Source: an uncultured Verrucomicrobiota bacterium
GTDB taxonomy: Bacteria; Verrucomicrobiota; Kiritimatiellia; RFP12; UBA1067
NCBI GenBank assembly: GCA_946623785.1
Contig: CAMORM010000005.1
Location: 1 to 43,187 of the forward strand
DNA: 43,187 nt
Reading direction: 5' to 3'
The translations under genes and the position numbers were made by a program. Positions 3,338 to 7,380 of this stretch are shown here, one piece after another. Numbering within the stretch: the stretch's first letter is position 1; each line of letters begins with the position of its first letter. The notes under the pieces were generated by a model that worked only from the letters and a program-made list of their open reading frames with translations, was not told the DNA's origin and searched no databases.

Positions 3338-4774
3338 ATGTCGTTCTTCAAGGCGTACGACATGCGCGGCACGTTCGGGGTCGACTTCGGCCTCGACACG
3401 GTCTACAAGGTGGGGCTCGCGCTTCCGAAGGTCGTGAAGGGGAGGCGCTGGCTCGTGGGGCGCGACTGCCGCACGACTTCCGGCGCAGTCCGCGACGCGC
3501 TGGTGAAGGGCCTCTCCGAGGCAGGCGCAGAGGTCTGCGACCTCGGGCTCTGCACCACGCCGATGGTCTACTACTTCACGGCGGCAGACAACTTCGACGG
3601 CTCCGTGATGATAACGGCGTCGCACAACCCGCCGACAGACAACGGGCTCAAAGTCTCGAAGGCTACAGCGCTCCCCGTGGGCTACGCGGACGGCTTGAAC
3701 GAGGTCGAGCGGCTGGTCTCCGGTTCCGGATGTCGAGTGTCGGGGGTTGAATGTCGGGTTCCGGATGGGACAGTCGACGATCGACAGCCGACAACCGGGG
3801 CGACTTGCGGCATTTCGACTTCCGACCCCGCCTCTTCGCCGCTTTCGCGCTACGTCGATTGGCAGCTCAAACACTCAAACACCCAAACACTCAAGAACTT
3901 GTCCTTCGCCGTCGACTGCTCGAACGGAATGTCAAGCATTCTGGCAAAGGAGATGTTCCCTGGCGCTGTTCTGCTCAACGACACGCCCGATGGATCCTTT
4001 CCCGCCCATTCCCCCAATCCGCTCAAGGCGGAGGCTCGCGAGCAGATCGCCAAAGTCGTGCGCGAGAAGCGGCTCGACTGCGGCGTGGTCTTTGACGGCG
4101 ACGCAGACCGTGCGATGTTCGTCGACGAACGCGGCGAGTTCGTCCAGCCCGACTACCTCATCCCCGTTGTCGCCAGGGCCACGAGGGAAAGTTTGAAGTT
4201 TGAAGTCGAAAGTTCAAAGTCGCAGGCGGGCAAGGCAAAGGTCATTCACGATGTCAGGACTAGCCGCGGAGCGATAGAGACTCTGCGGGAGGACGGCTTC
4301 GAGCCGGTGATGGTTCCCGTGGGGCATGCGTTCGCGAAGCCCATCATACGCAGCGAAAAGGCGCTGTGCGGCGGAGAGCTTGCGGGGCACTACTACTTTT
4401 CGGAGTTCTTCGGGTGCGATTCCGGCGTGCTTGCCGCAACGCGCATCCTCTCCGAGATCGCGAAGGCCAAGGCCGAGGGCAAGACGTTCTCCGAGATGAT
4501 GCGCCCGATCATGTCGCGCTATGCGAACTCCGGCGAGGTCAACTTCAAGGTCGAGGACAAGGACGCGGCGATTGCGCGCGTGCTCGAGACGGCGAAGACG
4601 CTCGGCAAGGAGGCGTCGCGTTCGGAGATCGACGGAGTGCGCCTCGAATACGCCGAAGGGTGGATCTCGATACGCAAGTCGAACACCGAGCCGTATCTGC
4701 GCCTCATCGTCGAATGCGACGCACGCGACCGCCTTGACGCCTGGCTCTCCGCGCTCAAGCGCGCGATAGGTTGA
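3338..4774 (+). CDS. Phosphomannomutase/phosphoglucomutase carrying repeat-derived insertions
   Basis: A 478-residue alpha-D-phosphohexomutase that interconverts hexose 1- and 6-phosphates for envelope sugar synthesis. All four family loops are present: phosphoserine loop TASHNP with Ser95, metal loop D253-G-D-A-D-R, sugar loop GGELAGH, and phosphate loop SNTEP near the C-terminus. ATG 3338 (MSFFKAYDMRG) is the natural start, one base after cstA. The spacing from Ser95 to Asp253 is about 24 residues longer than in Pseudomonas PMM/PGM. The excess coincides with residues 129-163, encoded wholly by fifteen heptamers, and with a nearby octamer array; a third array encodes about residues 285-296. 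All keep the frame, and the motifs downstream are intact, so the enzyme is probably functional with surface-loop insertions. Confidence 0.88.
   Translation: MSFFKAYDMRGTFGVDFGLDTVYKVGLALPKVVKGRRWLVGRDCRTTSGAVRDALVKGLSEAGAEVCDLGLCTTPMVYYFTAADNFDGSVMITASHNPPTDNGLKVSKATALPVGYADGLNEVERLVSGSGCRVSGVECRVPDGTVDDRQPTTGATCGISTSDPASSPLSRYVDWQLKHSNTQTLKNLSFAVDCSNGMSSILAKEMFPGAVLLNDTPDGSFPAHSPNPLKAEAREQIAKVVREKRLDCGVVFDGDADRAMFVDERGEFVQPDYLIPVVARATRESLKFEVESSKSQAGKAKVIHDVRTSRGAIETLREDGFEPVMVPVGHAFAKPIIRSEKALCGGELAGHYYFSEFFGCDSGVLAATRILSEIAKAKAEGKTFSEMMRPIMSRYANSGEVNFKVEDKDAAIARVLETAKTLGKEASRSEIDGVRLEYAEGWISIRKSNTEPYLRLIVECDARDRLDAWLSALKRAIG
3722..3826 (+). repeat. Degenerate heptamer array inside the phosphohexomutase gene (15 units, 105 bp)
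   Basis: The bases split cleanly into fifteen 7-mers, for example GGTTCCG, GATGTCG, AGTGTCG, AATGTCG, GGTTCCG, then CAGTCGA, CGATCGA, CAGCCGA and TTTCGAC, TTCCGAC. The early units carry TGTCG and the later ones its complement-like CGACA/TCGA, so the array switches strand sense near 3764. It starts and ends on codon boundaries and adds exactly 35 codons. Confidence 0.8.
3866..3897 (+). repeat. Octamer array inside the phosphohexomutase gene (4 units)
   Basis: Four consecutive 8-mers are seen: CTCAAACA, CTCAAACA, CCCAAACA, CTCAAGAA. They encode the Ser/Thr/Asn/Gln-rich stretch HSNTQTLKN just before the next conserved strand of the enzyme. The array lies 39 bases after the larger heptamer array and seems to be part of the same loop expansion. 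Confidence 0.75.
4191..4225 (+). repeat. Heptamer array inside the phosphohexomutase gene (5 units)
   Basis: Five 7-mers are seen: GTTTGAA, GTTTGAA, GTCGAAA, GTTCAAA, GTCGCAG. The array encodes SLKFEVESSKSQ at about residues 285-296, between the metal loop and the sugar loop. The GTTTGAA unit recurs in the intergenic array at 4802..4836 and resembles the complement of units in the 7290..7380 array. Confidence 0.78.
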
Positions 4775-4801: not shown

Positions 4802-4836
4802 TTTCGCCGTTTGAACTCTGAACTTTGAACTTTCCG
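4802..4836 (+). repeat. Intergenic heptamer array (5 units)
   Basis: Seven-base units TTTCGCC, GTTTGAA, CTCTGAA, CTTTGAA, CTTTCCG lie in the 132-base gap between the phosphohexomutase gene and hisS. The array starts 27 bases after the stop codon and ends 26 bases before the GC block of the hisS promoter. Confidence 0.72.
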
Positions 4837-6174: not shown

Positions 6175-7293
6175 ATGAAGGGTATCGCTCTAGCGGCGGC
6201 TGTCATTGCGGCGACTGCGGCCTTCGCGGCGAAGAAGGCCGAGGAGCCCGTTGGACGCCCGGAGGCGGTCGTCGCGATGCTCAACTCAAGCGTCTCGGGA
6301 GCGCCAAAGGCGTATTCGAAGGCAGTGGCCGCGGTCGTGGAGGACGCCGCGGCGGGATGCACGCTCCAGAAGTTCGTAGTCGCGCTTTTCAACGGCGAGA
6401 AGTCCATGCCCGCCACGCTGAAGGTCCCCGAGTCCGTCCGGGCGGAGTACTACGAGACGGGGCGCAAGCGGATGGAGGAGCTGGCGGCGCAGTCAAACCC
6501 GCTCGCGCTGTACCTGCTTGCAATAGACACGGGCGACACGAACACGCTCCGCCGCGCTGCGGAAGGTGGAAACGTGCAGGCCGCGAACGCGTGGGGCATG
6601 GCGCTGATGTCGGAGGTGGACGGCCCGCTGCCGGACGAGTCCGCGAAGGGCACGATGAAGAGGGCGTTTGGCTTCTTCCGCGACGCCGCCTCGCTGGGCG
6701 ACGCCAACGGGCTGTACAACATGGGCACGTGCTATGCGCGCGGGCTCGGGACTGACAAGGACGACAAGCGCGCGTACCAGTGCTTCAGGTCTGCTGCTGA
6801 CAAGGGCCATCCGCAGGCCATAAACAATCTCGGCTGGTGCTACCTTAAGGGGATGGGCGTCAAGGAGGACCACGCTGAGGCGGCCAAGTGCTTCGCGAAG
6901 TCCGCGGACTACGGCAACGCGGAAGGGCAGCTCAACTACGCTCTTGCGCTCATTTCCGGAGACGGCGTGGCGGTCAACTACAGGACGGCCGCTTCGCTGC
7001 TGCTGGACTCGGCGCGGCAGGACAATCTTGACGCGATCAACGCGTACGCCGTGTGCATTTCCAAGGGCCGCGGCGTGAAATGCGACCCCGCGCTTGCGGC
7101 GAAGTGGTTCCGCGCCGCGGCGGAAAGGGGGCATCCGCCAGCGATGGACAACCTTGCGGCTTGCTACGAGCTTGGCGAGGGCGTCGAGAAGTCGGAGAAG
7201 CTTTCGGTCTACTGGCACATGCGCTCCCTGGCTGCGCGCGGCGACGCCTACGCGGTCCAATGGCTGAAGGACCATCCAGATGGAAATTTGTAA
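6175..7293 (+). CDS. Exported SEL1-repeat (TPR-like) protein
   Basis: A 372-residue protein with a signal peptide (MKGIALAAAVIAATAAFA) and about five SEL1-type helical repeats between residues 175 and 365. The repeats are recognisable by alternating LGxxYxxGxGVxxD and AxxWFxxAAxxGxxxA patterns, such as NNLGWCYLKGMGVKED. SEL1 repeats are protein-interaction solenoids; the partner cannot be told from sequence. ATG 6175 has GGGAGGTG upstream and gives a clean signal peptide, so it is preferred over longer in-frame readings that overlap hisS. Its TAA stop at 7291..7293 lies inside the first unit of a heptamer array. It is likely co-transcribed with hisS. Confidence 0.82.
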   Translation: MKGIALAAAVIAATAAFAAKKAEEPVGRPEAVVAMLNSSVSGAPKAYSKAVAAVVEDAAAGCTLQKFVVALFNGEKSMPATLKVPESVRAEYYETGRKRMEELAAQSNPLALYLLAIDTGDTNTLRRAAEGGNVQAANAWGMALMSEVDGPLPDESAKGTMKRAFGFFRDAASLGDANGLYNMGTCYARGLGTDKDDKRAYQCFRSAADKGHPQAINNLGWCYLKGMGVKEDHAEAAKCFAKSADYGNAEGQLNYALALISGDGVAVNYRTAASLLLDSARQDNLDAINAYAVCISKGRGVKCDPALAAKWFRAAAERGHPPAMDNLAACYELGEGVEKSEKLSVYWHMRSLAARGDAYAVQWLKDHPDGNL

Positions 7294-7380
7294 GTTGTGA
7301 GTTATAAGTTGTAAGTGACTTCAAACTTCAAACATCAAACTTTAAACTTTGAACTTTGAACTTTAAACATCAAACTCAAC
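7290..7380 (+). repeat. Intergenic heptamer array (13 units, 91 bp)
   Basis: The whole gap splits in register into thirteen 7-mers: GTAAGTT, GTGAGTT, ATAAGTT, GTAAGTG, then ACTTCAA twice, ACATCAA, ACTTTAA, ACTTTGA twice, ACTTTAA, ACATCAA, ACTCAAC. The first four units are complement-like to the rest, so the array switches sense near 7318. Its first unit supplies the stop codon of the SEL1 gene, and it ends 14 bases before the next start codon. Confidence 0.85.

Follow-up and report, generated by a model that had tools for sequence, protein, structure and literature searches.

Degenerate 7- and 8-bp tandem arrays in a Kiritimatiellae phosphohexomutase gene as probable members of dispersed repeat families

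The phosphohexomutase gene studied here, contained in a stretch of 43,187 nts from an uncultured gut bacterium of the Verrucomicrobiota (hereafter the window), carries between its domains I and II a degenerate heptamer array, which is best read as a local member of the dispersed degenerate 7/8-bp tandem repeats that are abundant between Kiritimatiellae genes. Such arrays are rare in genes; those found there lie mostly in loops that are flexible and vary in length, in frame and devoid of stop codons, and close species hold different arrays in orthologous linkers. We consider it probable that dispersed arrays, similar to the short tandemly repeated repetitive sequences (STRR) of cyanobacteria, enter genes, persist only where a flexible linker stays in frame and free of stops, and go on turning over there.

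Arrays of the phosphohexomutase gene

The host gene was matched in 95 of 95 relatives. By its four domains and active-site motifs the product belongs to the PGM/PMM family: the Pfam domains PGM_PMM I–IV all score above cut-off, and the TASHNP phosphoserine loop (93–98), the DGDADR metal loop (253–258), the GEL sugar loop (346–348) and the SNTEP phosphate loop (448–452) are all present, with T93–P98, D253–D255, D257–R258 and T450–E451 invariant across 48 homologs. Its best solved relatives are the phosphoglucomutases 5kl0, 6nn2 and 5bmn. With an open frame of 478 aa and with domains and catalytic motifs complete, the host is, as originally predicted, a conserved metabolic gene, apparently intact.

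Table 1. Repeat arrays and host genes in the window and in other loci (unprefixed positions refer to the window; G000 is the window's genome)
Feature	Position	Strand	Remarks
Phosphohexomutase (PGM/PMM family) gene, 478 aa	3338-4774	+	ATG start at 3338; hosts three arrays
Degenerate heptamer array	3713-3826 (original prediction: 3722-3826)	+	Codons 126/129-163; linker between domains I and II
TGTCG-type arm (CGGATGTCGAGTGTCGGGGGTTGAATGTCG)	3727-3756	+	Array units; inverted arms I1/I2
CGACA-type arm (CAGTCGACGATCGACAGCCGACAACCG)	3771-3797	+	Ortholog arrays; match to L254
Octamer array CTCAAACA	3866-3899	+	Codons 177-188; Tandem Repeats Finder
Heptamer array AAGTTTG	4189-4220	+	Codons 284-295; linker between domains II and III; Tandem Repeats Finder
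Intergenic heptamer array TTTGAAC	4812-4833	.	Downstream of the gene; Tandem Repeats Finder
Intergenic heptamer array, GTAAGTT then AACTTCA orientation	7285-7375	.	Strongest in the window; Tandem Repeats Finder
Y-family polymerase, palindromic GGGGAAC/GTTCCCC array	G000:C25:18500-19816 and L223		About 23 codons
Glycosyltransferase linker between LPNGVDCRLF and LLCVARIDRQKNQM	G000:C48:14385-15158; loci L272-L277		

Between positions 3722 and 3826, 50 of 98 comparisons match at a lag of 7, against 26.1 ± 4.5 (sd) in 5000 dinucleotide shuffles, none of which reaches 50; the best of lags 4–14 in any shuffle is likewise below the observed lag-7 level. The 7-bp signal proposed from the letters thus stands above shuffled controls, and the heptamer units match those first listed. 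The array is real; its description as 15 × 7 bp starting on a codon boundary is not robust, since likelihood segmentation sets the borders at 3713–3826 and both the start and the unit number vary with the cut. Being degenerate, the array is missed by Tandem Repeats Finder at score 30. The reported switch from TGTCG- to CGACA-type units is found near 3764–3771, while the palindromy attached to it is modest, the best inverted arms being just 74–81% complementary. A hairpin of RNA or DNA was considered as the main feature of the array and rejected: folding with the flanks is unremarkable (z = −0.31, non-significant), and the array by itself shows a mild effect (z = −2.2). As to the CGACA arm, the nearest orthologs have its first 9 bases in their array, and 17 bases (3780–3796) are identical to the array of locus L254, in a genome of another family.

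The gene contains two more arrays that the original prediction had not reported, one of 8-bp and one of 7-bp period. In an AlphaFold model built from 48 homologs (mean pLDDT 92.4), residues 130–167 lack secondary structure (pLDDT 48–72) between helices 120–129 and 168–178, and the third array (residues 284–295) falls in a confidence dip (pLDDT 62–80). Both heptamer arrays are therefore read as occupying inter-domain linkers of low confidence, predicted to be disordered. The octamer segment (177–188) is well ordered in the model (pLDDT 94–96) and equals in length the non-repeat sequence of the orthologs, so that 15 codons are replaced and the length is unchanged. This combination fits overwriting better than insertion and suggests that overwriting also occurs. 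Outside the gene, the array at 7285–7375 lies at a gene junction, and the orientation of its units changes from AAGTT to AACTT.

Dispersed families and further host genes

The genome of the window is a fragmented assembly (257 contigs, 78% complete), of which 1.44 of 2.79 Mb were read, as stretches. This sample contains 57 clusters at lag 7 and 28 at lag 8, compared with 2–9 at the control lags 5, 10, 11, 13 and 17. Under a stricter threshold, 40 of 48 strong lag-7 arrays lie outside genes and 8 inside, in DNA whose coding share is 91% (non-coding about 9%) according to a simple ORF caller of our own. Array types recur at unrelated sites of the genome (TTTGAAC, TTAGTCG, GGGAATT, GGGGAAC, GGTGGTTA and CTCAAACA). 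The octamer array of the phosphohexomutase gene recurs exactly at G000:C73:11246, and copies matching at 26 of 27 bases lie at C19:5668 and C121:3566; at no more than 3 mismatches the octamer occurs in just 8 of 95 genomes, among them G000 and G047, the two with the octamer in their phosphohexomutase gene.

A search for NNTGTCG arrays of three units, allowing one mismatch, was positive in 51 of the 95 genomes of the order and reached 128–230 hits in five; reversed-pattern controls gave mostly 0–9, a few genomes being higher. In the relatives these arrays consist of runs of TGTCG/CGACA words, partly as inverted pairs. This dispersal, together with the 17-base identity to L254, bears out the view that the focal array is of an intergenic type. 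Within its own genome its nearest kin match at just 21 of 27 bases, so direct copying is not demonstrated for this array. G010, G024, G033, G034, G040 and G070 are each rich in one vocabulary (TGTCG, CTCAAACA or NTTCCCC), which suggests lineage-specific bursts. Counts for AGTTTGAAGTTTGAAGTT were discarded because reversing it gives almost the same repeat, which makes the control invalid, and a preference of inverted arms for the order GT-to-AC (8 vs 2) was set aside as resting on too few cases. Neither target-site duplication nor mobility enzyme was found for the arrays. RAYT-type (Y1_Tnp) transposases were rejected as mobiliser, and with them the REP/RAYT class, since the number of arrays does not track that of Y1_Tnp (Spearman −0.09, 57 family genomes).

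Within the same genome, arrays are also found in the genes for alanyl-tRNA synthetase (AlaRS), a Y-family DNA polymerase, an amidohydrolase, an FAD oxidoreductase and a group 1 glycosyltransferase; AlaRS, the polymerase and the glycosyltransferase were compared with relatives. The polymerase insert of about 69 bp is absent in 14 relatives, and G033 has an NTTCCCC array there (L223). Its length also speaks against divisibility of 15 × 7 by 3 as the reason why frames survive: in-gene inserts that are not multiples of 7 stay in frame through ragged ends. In the AlaRS loop, L215 and L219 have a 7-bp period and L209 an 8-bp period, and L214 and L218 show none. In the glycosyltransferase linker the period is 8 bp in L273–L275, 7 bp in L276 and 9 bp in L272, and L277 has no array; the array differs in most relatives and the flanks are nearly invariant. 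In the window's own genome the period of this linker is non-significant by the shuffle test; its sequence consists of TGTCG/CGACA words, with good folding (z = −3.35). The vocabulary of in-gene arrays follows the genome's own pool. Indeed, G033, with 178 NTTCCCC hits the highest among 22 genomes tested, carries NTTCCCC arrays in both its polymerase and its glycosyltransferase (L276).

Several inverted in-gene arrays, the glycosyltransferase linker just mentioned among them, fold better than shuffles (z = −5.9 for the polymerase insert, −5.1 for L151, −3.5 for L273 and −3.5 for L209); for the unidirectional ones folding is no better than for shuffles. The consensus unit is open on the coding strand in 16 of 16 strong in-gene arrays, a test that is partly circular because an array within an open gene must lack stops. 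One further candidate host gene, G000:C41:986-3967, in which a TPR-like protein is joined to an RlmL-like C-terminus via an ATGGATA heptamer array ahead of the RlmL motif, was left unused as a possible fusion or assembly chimera because relatives match just 39 of its residues.

Orthologous linkers and the origin of in-gene arrays

The nearest known genomes are those of rumen and gut Kiritimatiellae. The best orthologs are 77–80% identical and, in linker I–II, have 24–29 codons where the window has 45. The clean insertion of 35 codons that had been proposed does not survive this alignment of loop lengths, because orthologs already hold codons at the site and the net gain is 16–21 codons. Nor does a single invasion event describe the gene, which holds three arrays and whose linkers are independently filled in relatives with other 7-, 8- and 9-bp arrays. 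Linker II–III contains octamers of the CAACCACC type in L003, L128 and L130, the octamer ACTCAAAC in L007, and a 9-bp array in L010. L005 and L006, whose proteins are otherwise near-identical to that of L007, have in place of its octamer array a short element coding for PAYAEATAGKQ, which looks like a separate small repeat family; a search of open-licence papers gave no match to the peptide AEATAGK. In L151, linker I–II is occupied by an independent inverted heptamer array (GAGAGTT ... AACTCTC) that can form a long hairpin. On a tree of 49 proteins built without the linker sequences, the array type changed at least five times in linker I–II and at least seven times in linker II–III; these are minimum numbers of events and not species counts, since many species share ancestry.

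Members of the genomic pool of dispersed arrays would be copied into genes or reach them by ectopic recombination, or arrays would grow in genes from short seeds. Shared vocabularies support copying from the pool, with no single donor–recipient event caught among the arrays examined. Arrays that disrupt the frame, bring in a stop or fall in a structured part would be purged by selection, and within a tolerated linker arrays may still expand, contract and be replaced. An alternative that we hold to be unlikely is that Kiritimatiellae have a dedicated, so far undescribed process that writes 7- and 8-bp arrays, often enough to rewrite the inter-domain linkers of core enzymes between species. Such a process, for instance a template-switching or fold-back polymerase, would account for a period that is held as the sequence turns over, for inverted arms, and for overwriting as well as insertion.

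In-place growth and shrinkage are supported by two comparisons. Linker I–II of L126, L127, L132 and L157 has a significant three-unit heptamer array that begins with CAGTCGACG, as the window does at 3771, and the step from this array to the 45 codons of the window is 63 bp, or nine units; in linker II–III, L160 has the same heptamer array as the window, longer by 21 bp (three units, one 21-bp cycle). Both differences are also what one would expect of pure local slippage, by which linkers would drift to low complexity and 7- and 8-bp periods would arise in place with no dispersed family. As the whole explanation slippage seems to us quite unlikely, because the same vocabularies are found at many unlinked sites, with the in-gene vocabulary tracking the genome pool, and because in-frame slippage should favour multiples of 3, whereas the periods concentrate on 7, 8 and 9. 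Among 71 orthologs, lag 7 is significant in 9 for linker I–II and in 6 for linker II–III, where lag 8 is significant in 4; lags 5, 6 and 11 are never significant in either linker, and lags 4 and 10 give three cases altogether, in about 1700 tests, among which chance alone should give a few such hits.

Selection at the protein level for a Ser/Thr/Pro-rich or charged linker, with the DNA repeat as a by-product, agrees with the confinement of arrays to linkers and with a length that varies within limits (22–45 residues in linker I–II). This reading is very improbable, given that a period of 7 bp does not correspond to codons and that the peptides encoded in one linker share nothing: linker I–II yields CRVSGVECRVPDG, STADGRRP, EKEELRVEKEERR and STRTPQPSTRTP, and linker II–III yields SLKFEVESSK, HPATQPPNHLTTQ and TTQTLNNSNTQ. 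Since the peptides of a given linker are unrelated from one species to the next, a function of the encoded peptide appears unlikely, and it may have no specific role beyond spacing. Chance or artefact, be it the choice of limits in coding DNA rich in GC or a metagenome assembly chimera, might be suspected from the partly arbitrary borders and the fragmented, incomplete assembly, but its probability is close to nil in view of the shuffle test, the intact frame and the homologous arrays in the independently assembled L126, L127, L132, L157 and L160, orthologs that already refute it.

Our preferred reading thus remains that of dispersed arrays entering genes, being filtered and turning over. Few systems are known in which repeats lie inside essential bacterial enzymes, the Rickettsia palindromic elements (RPE) above all. 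As closely related genomes refill the same linkers with different repeats, tolerance, turnover rate and array origin become measurable. The arrays also point to natural insertion sites in these enzymes, and they warn that the linker sequences of these genomes tell little about protein function.

Comparison with known systems

No paper joining Kiritimatiellota with tandem or heptamer repeats was found in the open-licence literature; comparison is made with repeats of other bacteria. The STRR of heterocystous cyanobacteria have 7-bp units. The present arrays resemble them in being short tandem repeats with a 7-bp period above chance and with copies dispersed in the genome, mainly between genes. 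A precedent for a place inside a functional gene is the STRR in the RNase P RNA gene of heterocystous cyanobacteria (Vioque 1997, as cited in PMC2858038). In contrast to STRR, the arrays described here belong to another phylum, have many unit types as well as octamers, and are hosted by protein-coding enzyme genes. STRR in the strict sense are excluded by the host, whose close relatives are recorded as Kiritimatiellae/Verrucomicrobia; the distinction is by host group and not by consensus units.

The TAACTGA heptamer arrays of Beggiatoaceae are likewise mostly intergenic with some copies in ORFs, mainly at protein ends or in hypothetical proteins, and stop codons bar one orientation from genes (PMC4679880). 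However, they have a single fixed unit, whereas our arrays lie inside conserved enzymes and have units such as NNTGTCG, AAGTTTG and CTCAAACA. The RU/ERIC elements of enterobacteria are also small intergenic repeats recruited into ORFs (PMC2759123), but these are MITE-like, with terminal inverted repeats and TA target duplications.

RPE are inserted in frame within conserved genes, in solvent-exposed regions (PMC3767692; Ogata 2000, as cited in PMC2759123). The two heptamer arrays of the phosphohexomutase are in frame and predicted to be disordered, and the octamer segment is ordered. A likeness lies in the inverted arrays, such as those of the polymerase insert and L151. On the other hand, RPE are palindromes of 100–150 bp with conserved family sequences, and no such conserved element was found among our arrays, which differ in unit and length and are degenerate, of 7/8 bp and mostly unidirectional. 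STRR, TAACTGA repeats and RPE each share some features with the arrays of Kiritimatiellae, and none shares all of them. The closest parallel to the refilled linkers is offered by RPE, for which the element group at a given ortholog site may vary with the species (PMC3767692).
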